Of a stretch of DNA of 64,000 nt, positions 26,027-33,282 are shown piece after piece. Position 1 is the stretch's first letter. The number at the start of each line of letters is the position of its first letter. The DNA is taken from positions 2,728,001-2,792,000 of the forward strand of contig NZ_CP042997.1 in NCBI RefSeq assembly GCF_008087625.1, read 5' to 3'. The DNA is from Aquisphaera giovannonii. Lineage in GTDB: Bacteria > Planctomycetota > Planctomycetia > Isosphaerales > Isosphaeraceae. The notes under the pieces were generated by a model. It was not told the origin of the DNA. It was given only the letters and a program-made list of their open reading frames with translations, and made no database searches. A program made the position numbers and the translations under genes.

Positions 26027-27451
26027 TCAGCGGCGTGCGGAAACGGCCGGCGGGGCCGGGCCGTACCGCGCCGCCGGCCCGAAGGCCGTGCGATCCAGCC
26101 AGTTCAGCGTGCCCGAATTGCCGTGGAGGACGTGCACCGGCCCGCCGTCGGTACGATATCCGCGCCCGTCCTCGCCGACGAAATACTGATCCGGAGGCCG
26201 CCCGGCGAGCGCGTAGTTCCAGCCGCGGTCGATGATCCGGAAGGATTCGGGATGGGCGTGGCAGTAGAGGTTCAAGGCGGGCTGGTCGGCCCACAGGTCC
26301 ATGCCCCAGAGGAAGGGTGACCGCAGCAGCTGGACCCCCTCGCGGCAATACGCCATCAGGCTGCGCGCGGTCCCGGCCGCGAACCCGCTGTTGAGGAAGG
26401 TCTGCGACGACATGATGCGGAACGTCTCCTCGCGGGCGACCGGATCGATGACGTAGTCGGACCAGGTCCGGATGACCGGATTCTCGGGATAGCTCAGCGG
26501 CTCCGGGGCCACGAGGATCCGGTCCGGATGCGCGGCGACCAGGTCCCAGAGCGGCCCGAGGCGGGACTGGAAGAGGACGTCGCCGGCGTCCCAGTAGGCG
26601 ACGGGCGTGTCGGCCGGCCATTCCGCGAGCAACCGGGGAAAGTCCTCGAGCCGCCGGAGGGCCGGGCAGTCCCCGCTGGCGGGGATGGAGACGACGGTCA
26701 GGTTGGGGATCGCCGCCAGCTGCTCGAGCTCCAGGGGGCTCAGCCCGTAGGCGAAGGCCCAGACGGGCTCGTCGTTGCGGAACTCCCGGAGCGTCTTCAT
26801 GAATTGCTTGCGAAATCGCCTCTGGTCGCGCCTGTCGAATGCGGCCAGGATACGCCCCGGGGATCCTCGCGGCGACGAGGCGGCGGCGCTCGGCGCGGCA
26901 TGGTCCGGATGGGGCCGGGCCGGGTGCCGTGCCTCCGGCCCAGGACGATGCCACGCCGCGGCGCCCCGGAGATACCCGATGCCACGCCCGGCGGCGCGGA
27001 GGTCGTCGCAGCAGCACCGGCATTCGCAGCGTTCGTCATCCCATCGGAAGGTGAGGCCGGCGAGGTCGCGACGGCGGAAGAGGACGGCGGCCATGCCGAC
27101 GTGGGACGGGCAATCCCAGTTCTCCAACTCGCAACCCATCTCCGCGGCGCTGTCGGCCGCGAGGGCCGCGAACCCGGCCCGACGTCGGAGCCCCTCCGCG
27201 AGGGCCGACACGCAGCCGGGGCCCAGGACCACGTCGTCGTCGAGGAACATGACCAGCGGCCGCGAGCCGAACCGCTTCATCTCGTTGCGGGCCCGGGCGA
27301 TCGTCGCCCGGCGGTGCGGATCGTCGGGGTGGCGGGTGCCGGCGCAGCGGTGGACCGTCAGCGTCACGCCCCGCTGTGCCGCGATCCCCGCCCGGACGTC
27401 CTCGCGAAGCGGGGAGAGATCCCGGCTGAGTACGATCAGGTCGATGTCCAT
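26027..27451 (-). CDS. Two-module glycosyltransferase
   Basis: A 474-residue protein with two transferase-like halves. Residues about 1-235 are a GT2-type GT-A domain: MDIDLIVLSRDLSPL, ARARNEMKRFG and the metal-binding MFLDDDVVLGPG. A Pro/Ala/Arg-rich linker with a short Cys cluster precedes the second half, which starts about residue 255. This half has PVAYWDAGDVLFQS (a DxD-like motif) and SSQTFLNSGFAAG, as in nucleotide-sugar transferases of the GT8-like fold. GAGGAGG lies upstream of the ATG at 27451. No signal peptide or membrane helix is visible, so it acts in the cytoplasm. The sugar donor and acceptor are unknown. It is convergent with the solute-binding-protein gene, 8 bases apart. 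Confidence 0.72.
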   Translation of the reverse strand: MDIDLIVLSRDLSPLREDVRAGIAAQRGVTLTVHRCAGTRHPDDPHRRATIARARNEMKRFGSRPLVMFLDDDVVLGPGCVSALAEGLRRRAGFAALAADSAAEMGCELENWDCPSHVGMAAVLFRRRDLAGLTFRWDDERCECRCCCDDLRAAGRGIGYLRGAAAWHRPGPEARHPARPHPDHAAPSAAASSPRGSPGRILAAFDRRDQRRFRKQFMKTLREFRNDEPVWAFAYGLSPLELEQLAAIPNLTVVSIPASGDCPALRRLEDFPRLLAEWPADTPVAYWDAGDVLFQSRLGPLWDLVAAHPDRILVAPEPLSYPENPVIRTWSDYVIDPVAREETFRIMSSQTFLNSGFAAGTARSLMAYCREGVQLLRSPFLWGMDLWADQPALNLYCHAHPESFRIIDRGWNYALAGRPPDQYFVGEDGRGYRTDGGPVHVLHGNSGTLNWLDRTAFGPAARYGPAPPAVSARR

Positions 27452-27537
27452 CGCCGCCTCCTCGCCTTGCCCGCCTCGTGCCCGAGGTGGGCCGCCACCC
27501 GTTGCGGGTGAATTCGCCCTCGGCCCGATTGCGACGG

Positions 27538-28119
27538 TCAGGGATCCCGGGGGCACGCCGAGAGGGCCTGGGACTTCTTCTCCTTCGCGCAGCCGCGGGC
27601 GGCCGTGAAGCTCCCCTCCGCGCTCGTGGCCGCGGAGATGAGGCTCTCGTGGCGTGTCAGGACCGGTGCGTTCTCCGGCACGTAGACGATCCCCCGGGTC
27701 CCCTGGGGGAGCCGCACCTCGTAGGCCACGTTCTCGGCCTTGGGATCCCATTTCAGCGAGGCGATCAGGTCGCGGATCTCGCCGGGCCGGACGACCGTCG
27801 CGTGGGAGAGCCAGTTCGGCCCGTCTCCCGTCCATTCGGCCGACGCCGCCTCGGCGTCTTCCACGATGCGGACCATCCGGATGTCCGGGATCGCGACGAA
27901 TCGGGTGACGGTGTGGGTCTGGCTCAGTTGCTGGACGATCTTCAGGTAATACCTCGGATGCCGGTCCTTCGCCCTGGGGTCGGCCGGGCCGGGGTACCGG
28001 ATCAGCAGGATGTCGCCGGTCGACGGATAGGGCCCGGGCAGCGAGACCGTGCCCACGAGGTCGAACGCCAGGGCCTGACCCTCGCTGAACTCCAGGGTCG
28101 GGACCGGATCGGGCGGCAT
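27538..28119 (-). CDS. Conserved hypothetical protein
   Basis: A 193-residue soluble protein without a recognised domain. It has beta-strand-rich segments (QALAFDLVGTVSLPGPYPS, GDILLIRYPGPADP, RYYLKIVQQLSQTHTVTRF) and a basic Cys-containing tail. GAGGAG precedes the ATG at 28119, and a good TTGACA promoter lies about 110-145 bases further upstream. The next gene on the strand, the glycosyltransferase at 27451, starts 86 bases after its stop and may share its transcript. The function is unknown. Confidence 0.66.
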   Translation of the reverse strand: MPPDPVPTLEFSEGQALAFDLVGTVSLPGPYPSTGDILLIRYPGPADPRAKDRHPRYYLKIVQQLSQTHTVTRFVAIPDIRMVRIVEDAEAASAEWTGDGPNWLSHATVVRPGEIRDLIASLKWDPKAENVAYEVRLPQGTRGIVYVPENAPVLTRHESLISAATSAEGSFTAARGCAKEKKSQALSACPRDP

Positions 28120-28461
28120 GGGATGGCTCCTCGGGTTGGACGCGACGGGATTCGGGCCGTCGACCGGGACGCGGGGCGGGTTCCGGGGCGCATCGCCCGG
28201 GTCGGCACGCACCTCGGGCCGGCCTTTTCGGCACGATGATGAGGGCGCATTACCACGGTGTCAAATCATTTCCACATGAGAACGCTGGAGTGAATCGGCG
28301 GAGTGGCCGAATGCCGGATCTCCCGGCCATCCCATACGCATCGTCCTCGTCGATCTTTCGATGATTTCCCGCTATTCCGGACGGAATCCGGGGCGTAACG
28401 ATCGTGGAGCCCGCTCGCTTGCCGCCGGGGATGCCGTCCGGCATGCCGCACTCGTCCGGGC
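28120..28461. other. Intergenic region with a promoter
   Basis: This is 342 bases between the stop of the giant kinase gene and the start of the 193-residue protein, both on the minus strand. It contains the promoter listed at 28236-28264. The rest is without visible features; no terminator was found after the kinase gene. Confidence 0.5.
28236..28264 (-). promoter_or_regulatory. Sigma-70-like promoter of the 193-residue protein gene
   Basis: On the minus strand TTGACA (28264-28259) is followed after exactly 17 bases by CATCAT (28241-28236), four of six matches to TATAAT. Transcription would start near 28229 and give a leader of about 110 bases before the ATG at 28119. Confidence 0.55.
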
Positions 28462-31400
28462 TCAGCGTCCCTCAACCCGGGGCCGGTTTCGGGGCGATTC
28501 CCGCTGCGGGATCGTGCGGACGACCCGGAAGCCGAAAGTCCCCTCGTCGTTCGAGGCCACCACCATGTAGCGATGGGCGGACCGAGCCTGAGACGGGGAG
28601 TAGCAGAAGGCGCCGCCGCGGAGGAGACGCCTCGGCCGCCCGACGAACGTTTCTCCCGGCTGCCGGTCCGGGGCCGGCCTGCCCGGGGAGGACTCGGGAT
28701 AGGGCGGGCATTGGGGGTCGTCCAGCGTGCCGTCGTGGCACCACTCCCAGACGTTTCCAAGCGTGTCGAAGAGGCCAAGCGGGTTGGGCAGCAATTGGCC
28801 GACGGGGCGGGTCCGGTCGTCGGAGTTCAGCCATGTCCAGCCATACCGAGGGAACAGTTCCTTCGAATCTCCGAATGGACGAGTGGTCGCGGTCCCGGCC
28901 CGGCAGAGGAACTCCCACTCCGCCTCCGTCGGCAGGCGATACCCCGACCGCCCGGTCGCGCCCTCGTCGAGCAGCATCCCCGGCGCGATCACGTCCGGAT
29001 AGCAGCACTGGTCCCAGGGTATCGCCGGATCCTGGGAGGTGAGCCAGTTGCAGAAGCGGGCCGCGCCATACCAGTCCACGCCGTTCGCGGGGCAGGAGGG
29101 GTCGTGGCTGTAGACCATGTCGGGCTCCCGATCCGACCGGAAGCGGCGGAACTGGTCGATGCTGACCTCGCAGGTCGAGACCTCGAAGTCGTGACCCAGC
29201 GAGCGAAGGTGGAGCGCCTCGTTCTCCTTGCGGCCCTCCTGCGCAGGCGGCGAGCCGATCGACGCGGGGCCGGAGGGTCGGCAGGCCACGAAGGTGAGCC
29301 CGAGCGGGCCGATCCGCCACTCGGCCGCGGCATCGGGGCGGGGATTCGCGAGCAGCTGCCGTTTCACCTCTTCCACGAGGGACGCCTCGCCGAGGCGGCG
29401 GAGCAGCAGCTCGGCGGCGGAGTGGACGCCCGGGTCGGGATCGTCGCGGAAGGTACGGGCGGCGGCCTCCAGGACGATCGCCCTCTCGTCCGGGCTGAGC
29501 TCGCCCGGCCGGACCTCGGCCCAGCTCATCAGGATCGCCTGCCTCGCACCCGGGCTGGCCTGCGGCTCGATCACGCGGACAAGCAGCCGGGGCCGGGCGA
29601 TGGGGATCCCGGCCAGGTGGTCGATGGCGACCGCCCGGACGCGGGGATCCGGGCCATAACTCAGGAGGGAGGTGAGGTGTTCCTCGAAACCCATCAGGTC
29701 CAGCGCGATGCTGGCGATCGCCTGGCGGCCGGCGAGGTCATCGTCCTCCCGCCGGCAGACCCCCGGGCTCCCGAGCGGGGCTGCGAGGACGCTTCGGAGG
29801 GACTTGACGACGTCCTCCTGCCGGCCGAGGCTGGGGAGTCGCCGGAGGAGGATCTCCGCGGCGTCCATCCGGCTGGCGACGAGGACCTCCGCGAACCTCC
29901 GGGCCTCCTCCTGCCGCTCGAAGATCTCCCCGAGGAGCTCGGAGGCCGTCGCCCTGGCCAGGGGCGTGGCGTCCGGATCCCGGCAGGTCTCGCCGAGCGG
30001 CGTGATGAGGTCGCCTTCCGCGCTGCCGAGCAGGTCCATCCATCGGGATGCGTGCCGGCCGTCCTGCACGAGCGCCGCCGCGATCGCCGGGGCGGCGTCG
30101 CCGGGCACGGACCGGTCGCCGGGCAGGAGGTGCCGCAGGGCGCACGCGGCGCGGAGTCGGCGCCCCGCCTCGGCCCGCGGGTCGTCCATGACCCTCCGCA
30201 GCTCCTCGGGGCCGGCCCAGCCGGGCTGGCTCGCCAGGACGCGCCTCAGGGCATTCACCCGGTCGGGATCCGGGGCGTCCAGCAGGAGCTGCCGGATCCG
30301 TCCGGCCCGCTCCCTCGTCGGCTCATAGCGGAATAGGAGCATGTCCACGACCGGCTGCCCCTCGCCCTCCGCCCGCGCGCGACGCTCGAGCCTCTCGAGC
30401 TCGCCGAGCACCGAGCCGCGGAAGGCGTCGAGGCGCTGTGCCTTCTCGAGGATCATCTCGTCCTTCGCCCAGAGGGCCGCGTCCAGGGCGGCTCGCGCCT
30501 CCTGCCGTGCGACGATCGCGAGCACCGCGGCCGCGATGCCGGCGGTGAGGAGCGCCGCGAAGGCCAGGCGCACGGCGTGGTGCCGCCCCGCGGCGTTCAT
30601 CAGCGTGCTCTCCTCCGCGGACCACTGGCGGCGGGGGAGGCTCGTCAGGATGCCCAGGTATTCCAGCAGGGAGGGGAGCCGGTTCCTCGTCGGGCCGTGG
30701 GCCCACGACGCCGCGAAGGCCTGGAGCCTCAGCCGCGCGCGGCCTTCGCTGGTGCCCATCGCCTTCCGCTCGAGCCACTGGCGGACCGGCCGGATCAGGT
30801 AATCGTGGGCGAGCTGGTAGTGGGTCTCGGCGGCGCGGGCCCGATCGCCGTCATTCGTGTCGGCGGCCGGGCCGACGGCCGAGAGCGGCTCGACGGGCGT
30901 GATCAGCCGGAGGTCGTTCTCCAGCAGGCGGAGGAGGTCCGCGAAGTCCTCGGGCCGGTCGTCGCAACCCGCGGCGGCCCGGAGCGACCGGGCCGATCGC
31001 GGGGACTCGCGGATCCGGGAGGAGGGCGACGGCAGGAGCTGCCTCAGGACCGCCTCCGCCTCCTCCCTCCGGAATCGTGACGCCGGCGTGGAGTTGACCG
31101 GGTCGAAGGCCTGCTCGAGGAACTTTACGCCGATGCCCTCCATCCCGCCCAGCGCGTCGATGGCCTCCAGCGTCCATTGGCGGTGGCGGATCACCTCCAC
31201 CAGGAGGCTGAGGCGGACGGGGACCACGCGGTCGTCTGGCCCCAGCAGGCCGGCGACCGCCGCGTCCAGGAACCGGGACGACTCCTCGGGCGTCACGGTG
31301 CTCGACGGCCCGAGCTGGCCGAGCGATCGGCCGAATTCCTCGAGCACCTTGCGGGCGTGGCGGGCGTCGAAGATCTCCACGGCGGCGGTGTTGACGCCCT

Positions 31401-33282
31401 CCAGGAGCGGCACCTCCACCGCGCGCATCAGTCGCGTGGTGGCCATCCAGAAGTCGTCGCGGACGAGCAGGATCGCCTGCACGTGGCGGCCGTCGCACTG
31501 CCGGAGCGCGCGGGCGAGCGCGGTGGACGGCCCGAGCGGGCGTCCCTGGAGCCATTGCTCGAACTGATCGAGGACCAGGAGGATCTTCTTGCGGGGCCGC
31601 ACCGCCTGGTCGTCGCGGATGATGCCTATGGCGTCGGCGATGTCGACGTCGGCGGGCAGCTGCGGCGCCAGCAGGCGGAGCTCGGCGAGGAGCCGGTCCT
31701 CCAGGCCGCACGGCGTCGCGTCCAGGACGACCGGCTCGACGATGCGGCGGTCGCGGAGCGGGAGCAGGCCCGCGCGGATGAACGACGACTTCCCGCCGCC
31801 GGAGGGGCCGAAGAGGACCCCGACGCTGAACGGCCGCGACGCCTCCTCGCCCTCGATGCGCAGCTTCCAGAAGCGGATCGACTCCGGCAGCCCGTCGCTG
31901 CCGCGCGGCCCCGGCAGCAGCGACACGAAGGACTCGGCGTCCTCCCCGCGGAAGGGACGCATGCCGCGGGGCGAGGCGGGCGGCCTCTCCCCGTTCTCGT
32001 CCTCCGGCCGCGCGCCGGCCAGCCATCGGCGCAGCTCGCTGGCGAGGTCGGCGGCCGTGAGGTAGCGGTCCGTCATCTGCCGGGAAAGGCACCGCAGGCA
32101 GATCCGCTCCAGCTCCCTCGGGATGAACTCCCCGAACTGGCGGGGAGGGCGGGGCTCGCGGTCGAGGATCTCCCGGAAGCAGTCCGACGTCCTCCGGCCT
32201 CGGAAGGGCAGCCGGCCGGTCAGGCCCCGATAGAGGATCACGCCGAGGGCCCAGATGTCCGTCCGCCCGTCGAGCCGGTTGGTCTCGCCCTGGACCTGCT
32301 CCGGCGACATGTAGGGCACGGTGCCGGCCACCTCACCCCGCCGCAGCCGCGGGATCTCCTCGTCGATCGCCAGGCCGAAGTCGCAGACCCTCGGCCGACC
32401 CATGGCGTCCAGCAGGATGTTCGACGGCTTCAGGTCGCGATGCGTCAGGCCGGCGTTGTGGGCGTGATTCACGGCCGAGGCCACGTCCGCGACGATCCTC
32501 GCCAGCCGGCCGGGGTCCAGGCGGCCCCGGCTCATCAGATTCTCGAGCGTCTGGCCGGCGACGTATTCCAGGACGATGAAGCCATCCGCGCCCCCCTCGC
32601 CCGACTGCGGGTCGCCGGGCGGGACGAACTCGTGGAGGCGCACGATCCCGGGGTGGTCGAGGGACCTGAGCCGCCTCGCCTCGTCCCCCAGGGACATCAG
32701 CCGACGCCGGCCGACCGGGTCGCCGGGCCTTGCCGTCTTGATCGCCACGTCCCGGCCGCGCTGCTCGTCGTGGGCGAGGAAGACGAGGAAATTGCCCCGG
32801 CCGAGGAGGCGGCTCGGCCGGTATCGGCCGATCCTCTCCGGCAGGATCGTCTTCCCGCCCCACCCGTCTCCGGCATCCTCCCAGAATACGGATCGGCCGC
32901 CGGGAGCGGCCGGGTCGGTGCGATCCAGGGTGCTGGGCGGCTCCATGCCGGTGGCGTGGTCCGTGCCCACGGCCAGGAAGGGGTCGTCCCCGTCGTGCGG
33001 CGACATCGCCCCCAGGACCGTCCCGACCAGGTCGCCATGCTCGCCGAACCTCCCCTCGTAATCGCTCGGCTCCGGCGCCTCGCCCTCCTGGCGTCGCAAT
33101 TCGATCTCGCGTGCCAGCAGCTCGCGAAACAGGACGGTCCGGGCGAGGATCGTGGACCGATCCAGGTAGTCCTCGATGCGGGGCCTCCGCCCGGACCTCC
33201 AGGCCTCTTCGAACGAATCGCAGAGCTCATCGATCCGCTGGAGTTCGGTGAGGCGGAGCATCTCGGATGACATGAAGACCAT
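28462..33282 (-). CDS. Giant Ser/Thr kinase - NTPase - FGE-sulfatase fusion protein
   Basis: A 1606-residue protein. Residues 1-100 are the helical N-terminus typical of planctomycete kinases. A protein kinase domain spans about 151-425: VAIK lysine K182, catalytic HRD at 281-283, DFG at 301-303 and SPEQ at 326-329. The glycine loop (GRGNFLVF) lacks its third glycine. A P-loop NTPase follows with Walker A GPSGGGKSS (492-500) and Walker B ILLVLDQFE (567-575), of the STAND type. One membrane helix lies near 902-924, then a HEAT-like helical region. An FGE-sulfatase/SUMF1-like domain takes about 1322-1595 (YRLPTEAEWEFLCRAG, LGNVWEWCHDG, RLLRGGAFCY). The kinase and NTPase would be cytoplasmic and the FGE domain outside the membrane. 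The start at 33282 has GGAGAG upstream; an ATG 9 bases inward is an alternative. Confidence 0.88.
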   Translation of the reverse strand: MVFMSSEMLRLTELQRIDELCDSFEEAWRSGRRPRIEDYLDRSTILARTVLFRELLAREIELRRQEGEAPEPSDYEGRFGEHGDLVGTVLGAMSPHDGDDPFLAVGTDHATGMEPPSTLDRTDPAAPGGRSVFWEDAGDGWGGKTILPERIGRYRPSRLLGRGNFLVFLAHDEQRGRDVAIKTARPGDPVGRRRLMSLGDEARRLRSLDHPGIVRLHEFVPPGDPQSGEGGADGFIVLEYVAGQTLENLMSRGRLDPGRLARIVADVASAVNHAHNAGLTHRDLKPSNILLDAMGRPRVCDFGLAIDEEIPRLRRGEVAGTVPYMSPEQVQGETNRLDGRTDIWALGVILYRGLTGRLPFRGRRTSDCFREILDREPRPPRQFGEFIPRELERICLRCLSRQMTDRYLTAADLASELRRWLAGARPEDENGERPPASPRGMRPFRGEDAESFVSLLPGPRGSDGLPESIRFWKLRIEGEEASRPFSVGVLFGPSGGGKSSFIRAGLLPLRDRRIVEPVVLDATPCGLEDRLLAELRLLAPQLPADVDIADAIGIIRDDQAVRPRKKILLVLDQFEQWLQGRPLGPSTALARALRQCDGRHVQAILLVRDDFWMATTRLMRAVEVPLLEGVNTAAVEIFDARHARKVLEEFGRSLGQLGPSSTVTPEESSRFLDAAVAGLLGPDDRVVPVRLSLLVEVIRHRQWTLEAIDALGGMEGIGVKFLEQAFDPVNSTPASRFRREEAEAVLRQLLPSPSSRIRESPRSARSLRAAAGCDDRPEDFADLLRLLENDLRLITPVEPLSAVGPAADTNDGDRARAAETHYQLAHDYLIRPVRQWLERKAMGTSEGRARLRLQAFAASWAHGPTRNRLPSLLEYLGILTSLPRRQWSAEESTLMNAAGRHHAVRLAFAALLTAGIAAAVLAIVARQEARAALDAALWAKDEMILEKAQRLDAFRGSVLGELERLERRARAEGEGQPVVDMLLFRYEPTRERAGRIRQLLLDAPDPDRVNALRRVLASQPGWAGPEELRRVMDDPRAEAGRRLRAACALRHLLPGDRSVPGDAAPAIAAALVQDGRHASRWMDLLGSAEGDLITPLGETCRDPDATPLARATASELLGEIFERQEEARRFAEVLVASRMDAAEILLRRLPSLGRQEDVVKSLRSVLAAPLGSPGVCRREDDDLAGRQAIASIALDLMGFEEHLTSLLSYGPDPRVRAVAIDHLAGIPIARPRLLVRVIEPQASPGARQAILMSWAEVRPGELSPDERAIVLEAAARTFRDDPDPGVHSAAELLLRRLGEASLVEEVKRQLLANPRPDAAAEWRIGPLGLTFVACRPSGPASIGSPPAQEGRKENEALHLRSLGHDFEVSTCEVSIDQFRRFRSDREPDMVYSHDPSCPANGVDWYGAARFCNWLTSQDPAIPWDQCCYPDVIAPGMLLDEGATGRSGYRLPTEAEWEFLCRAGTATTRPFGDSKELFPRYGWTWLNSDDRTRPVGQLLPNPLGLFDTLGNVWEWCHDGTLDDPQCPPYPESSPGRPAPDRQPGETFVGRPRRLLRGGAFCYSPSQARSAHRYMVVASNDEGTFGFRVVRTIPQRESPRNRPRVEGR

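Follow-up and report, generated by a model that had tools for sequence, protein, structure and literature searches.

Predicted membrane topology and a variable, putative sensor domain in a kinase-STAND-FGE protein of Aquisphaera giovannonii

A single gene in a 64-kb stretch of the Aquisphaera giovannonii genome (the whole of which we call the window) raises the question of what a protein might do that joins a kinase, a STAND NTPase, a helical repeat region, and an FGE domain in one chain, and on which side of the membrane its putative sensor would work. Innate immunity in plants and animals is built around STAND proteins, as are several phage defenses, and those that are well studied sense inside the cell. 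Our analysis suggests that the window protein is probably a receptor kinase that crosses the membrane once, relays its signal through the STAND domain, and carries a diversifying sensor on the outside. If the family does join a STAND switch and a kinase to a hypervariable sensor on the outside, this receptor logic would be extended to the cell surface.

Domain architecture and predicted topology

Translation from the ATG at position 33282 on the minus strand gives a protein of 1606 residues (Table 1). Pfam places Pkinase at residues 155 to 408 (5.2e-41), nSTAND1 at 487 to 862 (2.1e-14), and FGE-sulfatase at 1336 to 1589 (1.4e-32), with all three matches above their own curated cut-offs. Translation, Pfam, hydropathy, and predicted structure together give the order, from N to C terminus, of a Hanks kinase, an nSTAND1 NTPase, a single membrane helix, an alpha-solenoid, and an FGE domain. 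This is the order that the original prediction had read from the sequence, and the motif positions that it named (K182, HRD, DFG, Walker A, and Walker B) are all found in the translation.

The kinase retains its catalytic set, comprising K182, the alpha-C glutamate E201, H281-D283 (HRD), N288, and D301-G303 (DFG), which is invariant among homologues, and across 18 homologues the key kinase and Walker A/B residues together vary little or not at all. The glycine-rich loop, GRGNFLVF, does not form a complete GxGxxG. The third Gly was originally reported as missing, and it is indeed absent, but the alignment shows that the change is not of this Gly alone, one residue having been deleted as well; among 18 aligned sequences the shortened loop is shared only with the Aquisphaera insulae orthologue. 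A complete GxGxxG is common in Hanks kinases without being universal, and its absence excludes neither activity nor kinase homology. An active kinase stays the default reading because the other catalytic residues are invariant, while the shortened loop makes activity less than certain. PADLOC matches to PD-T4-6, MAD6, PglW, and other kinases were confined to the generic kinase domain, and these identities were rejected.

The NTPase scores over the cut-off for PF20703 and has both Walker motifs, a conserved Arg after strand 4, a winged-helix end, and a matching fold; Walker A, Walker B, VRDDF, and the winged-helix motif are nearly invariant in the homologue alignment. We modeled residues 437 to 1606 with AlphaFold2 and 17 homologues, obtaining a mean pLDDT of 84 and a pTM of 0.57, the latter meaning that the relative placement of the domains is poorly defined. 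The STAND part aligns with MalT, Apaf-1, and the NB-ARC of plant NRC1 (Z of ∼15, VIA-align), matches that are supportive rather than exact because the rmsd is large (6 to 10 over 300 to 335 residues), and Foldseek matches also include a STAND protein with TPRs, and Avs4. Structure prediction, fold matches, profile, and motifs thus support a STAND fold for the P-loop region. The helical repeat region is predicted to be an alpha-solenoid, with Foldseek matches to the solenoids of PP2A, importin, and CAND1.

Kyte-Doolittle hydropathy of the window protein peaks at 2.56 in a 19-residue segment at residue 906, the next-highest value being 1.22. A helix reaching at least 1.6 is present at the corresponding place in 72 of 80 family members, and later segments reach 1.6 in 3 of the 80. 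Mean net charge across members is +3.3 in the 15 residues on the N side of the helix versus +0.9 on the C side, and the N side is the more positive in 66 members and the less positive in 4, which is the inside-positive sense. Because the ATP-using domains would be inside and the one helix has inside-positive charge, the solenoid and FGE domain are predicted to lie outside the cytoplasmic membrane, with the kinase and NTPase inside. Hydropathy and charge therefore point the same way as the outside sensor first proposed, and a survey of planctomycete kinases, in which FGE domains are mostly predicted to be periplasmic (PMC11032199), agrees with this topology.

Table 1. Coordinates of the window gene, its protein features, and related loci
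Feature	Residues	Position	Strand	Basis
Whole gene, 1606 aa	1-1606	28462..33282	minus	Translation; frame conserved in homologues
N-terminal extension, poorly conserved beyond close relatives	1-147	32842..33282	minus	Homologue alignment
Hanks-type Ser/Thr kinase domain; Lys182, Glu201, HRD, DFG intact	150-430	31993..32835	minus	Pfam, alignment
Glycine-rich loop, one residue short, third Gly absent	161-167	32782..32802	minus	Alignment
nSTAND1 NTPase with winged-helix end (YQLAHDYL)	437-885	30628..31974	minus	Pfam, alignment, fold
Walker A (GPSGGGKSS)	492-500	31783..31809	minus	Translation, alignment
Walker B (ILLVLDQFE)	567-575	31558..31584	minus	Translation, alignment
Single transmembrane helix	about 902-924	30511..30579	minus	Hydropathy
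Alpha-solenoid (HEAT/ARM-like), predicted extracytoplasmic	about 976-1312	29347..30357	minus	Predicted structure
FGE/C-type-lectin-like domain	1322-1595	28498..29319	minus	Pfam, sequence and fold matches
Segment in register with DGR variable repeats (RGGAFCYSPSQARSAHRYMVVASNDEGTFGFR), hypervariable in family	1555-1586	28525..28620	minus	Alignment, entropy
Glycosyltransferase-like genes		window 26030-28212; L041 4560-7238; L168 4480-7314	same as family gene	
bAvd behind kinase-STAND-FGE genes without intact RT		L110 3833-4512; L177 7987-8271; L158 13971-14192; L112 11484-11762; L175 downstream of 5011		
DGR of the host genome		L036 2921-6294 (G000:C1 about 9251900-9255300)		
Second FGE gene of the host genome		L067 (G000:C1:9812423-9812533)		
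Kinase-NACHT-FGE protein		L261 6486-12302		
Kinase-FGE proteins without STAND domain		L234 557-5476; L237 1084-4997		

Variability of the proposed sensor face and links to retroelements

The FGE domain contains a segment that lines up with the variable repeats (VR) of diversity-generating retroelements (DGRs). Among 80 non-redundant family members, positions that are mutable under either of two DGR template repeats (TRs) have a mean entropy of 3.55 and 3.64 bits, respectively, versus 1.63 and 1.76 elsewhere in the segment (p of 2e-6 and 4e-6), and none of the residues on the variable face is conserved. At equal sample size, the receptor family has 3.09 bits at mutable positions versus 1.52 in the core, and a control set of 19 FGE-like proteins that stand alone, in which several positions are invariant, has 1.22 versus 0.53, a comparison that is indicative only because the control set is less diverged overall. 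The loop exceeds the core by a similar ratio (about twice) in both sets, although at a far lower level in the control, and all mutable positions are unconserved in the receptors only; the fold itself accounts for part of the variability of the segment. Comparison with A. insulae (dS of 0.6 to 0.9) gives dN/dS values of about 0.13 for the kinase, 0.25 for the STAND part, 0.47 for the solenoid, 0.29 for the FGE frame, and 0.40 for the VR-like segment. The signaling half is constrained and the outer half is faster-changing, the pattern expected of a receptor.

The original prediction had also placed FGE-like domains in diversity-generating settings, which holds for relatives of the window gene and not for the gene itself. 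One relative, from the same class as the window (L189 in genome G397), is a 1860-residue protein with kinase, nSTAND1, solenoid, LamG, and FGE domains whose gene is followed by bAvd, RT, and TR, a complete DGR. Of the 13 TR/VR mismatches there, 12 fall at TR adenines (P of 4e-7), identifying the protein as a DGR target, and the intact retroelement makes ligand selection of variants a testable question. A bAvd gene lies directly after the stop of six family genes in total (L189, L110, L177, L175, L158, and L112). L110 retains a truncated RT and L112 is cut by the end of its contig, while for L177, L175, and L158 we recognized no RT in the available sequence of the 5 kb downstream of bAvd; it looks as though the DGRs of the five loci other than L189 were lost or act from elsewhere.

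Other planctomycete DGR loci have kinase-FGE proteins and one kinase-NACHT-FGE protein adjoining bAvd and RT. The latter (L261), which keeps the same three-part plan with a second NTPase type and precedes bAvd and RT, is apparently a candidate DGR target, and two of the kinase-FGE genes (L234 and L237), encoding no STAND domain, are directly followed by bAvd and RT. DGR-linked members are scattered over the STAND tree (5 changes, the same as in shuffles), a distribution that speaks neither for nor against ancestral DGR targeting of the whole family.

Within the 64-kb window we found no RT, bAvd, or other DGR part. The host genome has a complete DGR (L036) elsewhere, made up of an FGE target gene, an HRDC protein, RT, and TR, with 14 of 15 TR/VR mismatches at TR adenines. 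Its target segment aligns without gaps to the corresponding segment of the window protein, and its TR has no match in the window gene, which, given also the lack of RT and bAvd in the window, is ruled out as a present DGR target. A second FGE gene of this genome (L067) matches the L036 TR at 72 % and is changed at 20 of 29 adenines, but also at 15 of 92 other positions; it is perhaps an old remote target of the L036 DGR.

We hypothesize that, outside the cytoplasmic membrane, the alpha-solenoid bears an FGE/C-type-lectin-like domain that has lost catalysis and would bind a ligand through its variable face (residues about 1560 to 1583). The signal could then pass through the helix at 902 to 924 to the STAND NTPase at the inner membrane face, where nucleotide exchange and clustering would bring the attached kinases together, leading to their mutual phosphorylation and then to phosphorylation of downstream proteins. 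A DGR would renew the specificity of the sensor face in at least one relative, and ordinary mutation and duplication (four copies) would do so in the host genome. More tentatively, the family may represent a planctomycete receptor class in which a lectin-like sensor outside the cytoplasm, diversified by DGRs or mutation, drives a STAND/NLR-type switch under the membrane; if true, bacteria would have an equivalent of the variable immune receptors of cell surfaces, with a kinase output.

Genomic neighborhood, known systems, and alternative functions

The same topology would also suit an ordinary environmental or cell-surface receptor kinase that senses, for example, glycans, wall fragments, or kin and has no part in defense, and this is quite conceivable given the neighbors of the gene. 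In the window these are two DUF1559 pilin-like proteins, a HAD hydrolase, an FAD oxidoreductase, Mfd, a solute-binding protein, a PPIase, and a SpoIIM protein. These adjoining genes, a survey of which was called for at the outset, are housekeeping or metabolic genes, and in 107 clustered neighborhood loci no conserved operon partner was present in most. Besides bAvd, the most recurrent nameable downstream neighbors are glycosyltransferase-like genes, found on the same strand in about 12 loci, one of them a host-genome paralogue. These genes and the LamG lectin domain added in L189 also favor ordinary reception, whereas a changing partner that has to be tracked is suggested by the DGR diversification of relatives and by the saturation seen at the sensor face. 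The genes at window positions 26030 to 28212 are glycosyltransferase-like by eye alone and have no Pfam match. Near the window gene PADLOC reported no defense gene, only helicase cross-matches to Mfd, so a defense function of this gene is an analogy and not a finding.

The analogy comes from systems of a kind already known. STAND-FGS proteins that contain nSTAND1, have kinases among their effectors, and are linked to DGRs were described by Kaur et al. (2021; PMC8195603), who interpreted them as sensors of invaders inside the cell. The window protein shares their order of an N-terminal effector (Ser/Thr kinases included), a central STAND NTPase (nSTAND1 or other), and a C-terminal FGS, here recognizable by its fold and by an RGG...GFR frame with variable positions in between, and a frequent DGR link is a further resemblance. 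The DGR targets reported from Thiohalocapsa PB-PSB1 and other multicellular bacteria in 2024 (PMC10907252) likewise combine nSTAND1 with a C-terminal FGE as variable ligand-binding domain, but have an EAD8 adaptor or an unassigned N terminus where the window protein has a fused kinase, and the window gene has no DGR. These precedents, together with the fact that characterized antiviral STAND proteins sense inside the cell, would fit an intracellular conflict sensor in which the helix is a mere anchor or uninserted, the FGE domain binds phage or invader molecules, and the kinase effector stops growth. We consider this unlikely, since almost all members of the family, unlike STAND-FGS proteins, have a helix and an alpha-solenoid between STAND and FGS, and it is because of this helix that their sensor is predicted to be outside. 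With the N side of the helix inside-positive and one helix per chain, the C-terminal part would lie on the far side of the membrane if the helix inserts. Planctomycete kinase-FGE proteins are also generally predicted to be periplasmic (PMC11032199), and defense genes were not found adjoining the window gene.

For the membrane receptor that we favor, what appears to be new is a layout that spans the membrane and puts the solenoid and the sensor beyond it, which we did not find described in the literature searched; it is conserved across planctomycetes and DGR-targeted in at least one (L189). A kinase inside, one transmembrane helix, and an FGE domain outside are shared with planctomycete transmembrane Ser/Thr kinases, whose third commonest accessory domain is the sulfatase-modifying-factor (FGE) domain; the accessible part of that survey (PMC11032199) does not discuss the STAND relay, solenoid, or DGR link seen in the present family. 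Cyanobacterial kinase-CLec proteins, which are DGR variable proteins (PMC7517822), also fuse a Ser/Thr kinase to a C-terminal, DGR-diversified C-type-lectin fold, but have no STAND NTPase and are mostly predicted to be cytosolic. A search of the main texts of openly available papers found no dedicated paper on DGRs in Planctomycetota.

The FGE domain itself bears on whether the protein could instead be a bifunctional enzyme. Its top match by sequence (3.6e-14) and by fold (Z of 28.5 and rmsd of 2.6 A over 249 residues; VIA-align) is TvpA of Treponema denticola, a DGR-diversified ligand-binding protein. TvpA (PDB 2y3c) has its variable segment at the same place in the FGE-domain fold but stands alone, without kinase or NTPase. 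PvdO and FGE enzymes rank next by both measures, and C1560, the sole Cys of the window protein in that segment, aligns near the first active-site Cys, as might be expected if an FGE, PvdO, or EgtB-like domain oxidized a substrate under kinase regulation. This is highly improbable: the copper-binding C-x4-C pair of the active site occurs in 0 of 80 members, which rules out an active oxygenase, and the variable face has no conserved residue and is the mutational target of the DGR in L189. Four further cysteines (C1411, C1427, C1460, and C1515) are 72 to 100 % conserved and lie outside the active-site segment. Sequence and modeled fold thus support a domain of the ligand-binding type rather than an FGE enzyme, the second of the two roles originally offered for it.

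Distribution of the domain order

A named-genome collection contained 412 places encoding relatives, of which 79 loci were kept; kinase, STAND, solenoid, and FGE share one open frame in 71 of these, and several of the other 8 are interrupted by contig ends or frame breaks. The host genome alone has 4 copies of the full order. The worry raised at the start, that the order might be a chance fusion peculiar to this genome, is thereby settled, and the conserved order and purifying selection refute a functionless chance fusion or assembly artifact, the probability of which is negligible. Hosts of the relatives are nearly all planctomycetes, in addition to one Verrucomicrobiales MAG and a few uncultured bacteria. 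When the phylum was sampled evenly, 23 of 393 genomes, nearly all of the window's class, gave matches extending from the STAND part through to the end of the FGE domain; this figure is a minimum, as few candidates were scored per genome. In the host genome (10.5 Mb, three contigs), kinase similarity turns up at more than 150 places, and 14 FGE domains and at least 8 nSTAND1 domains exceed the cut-off.
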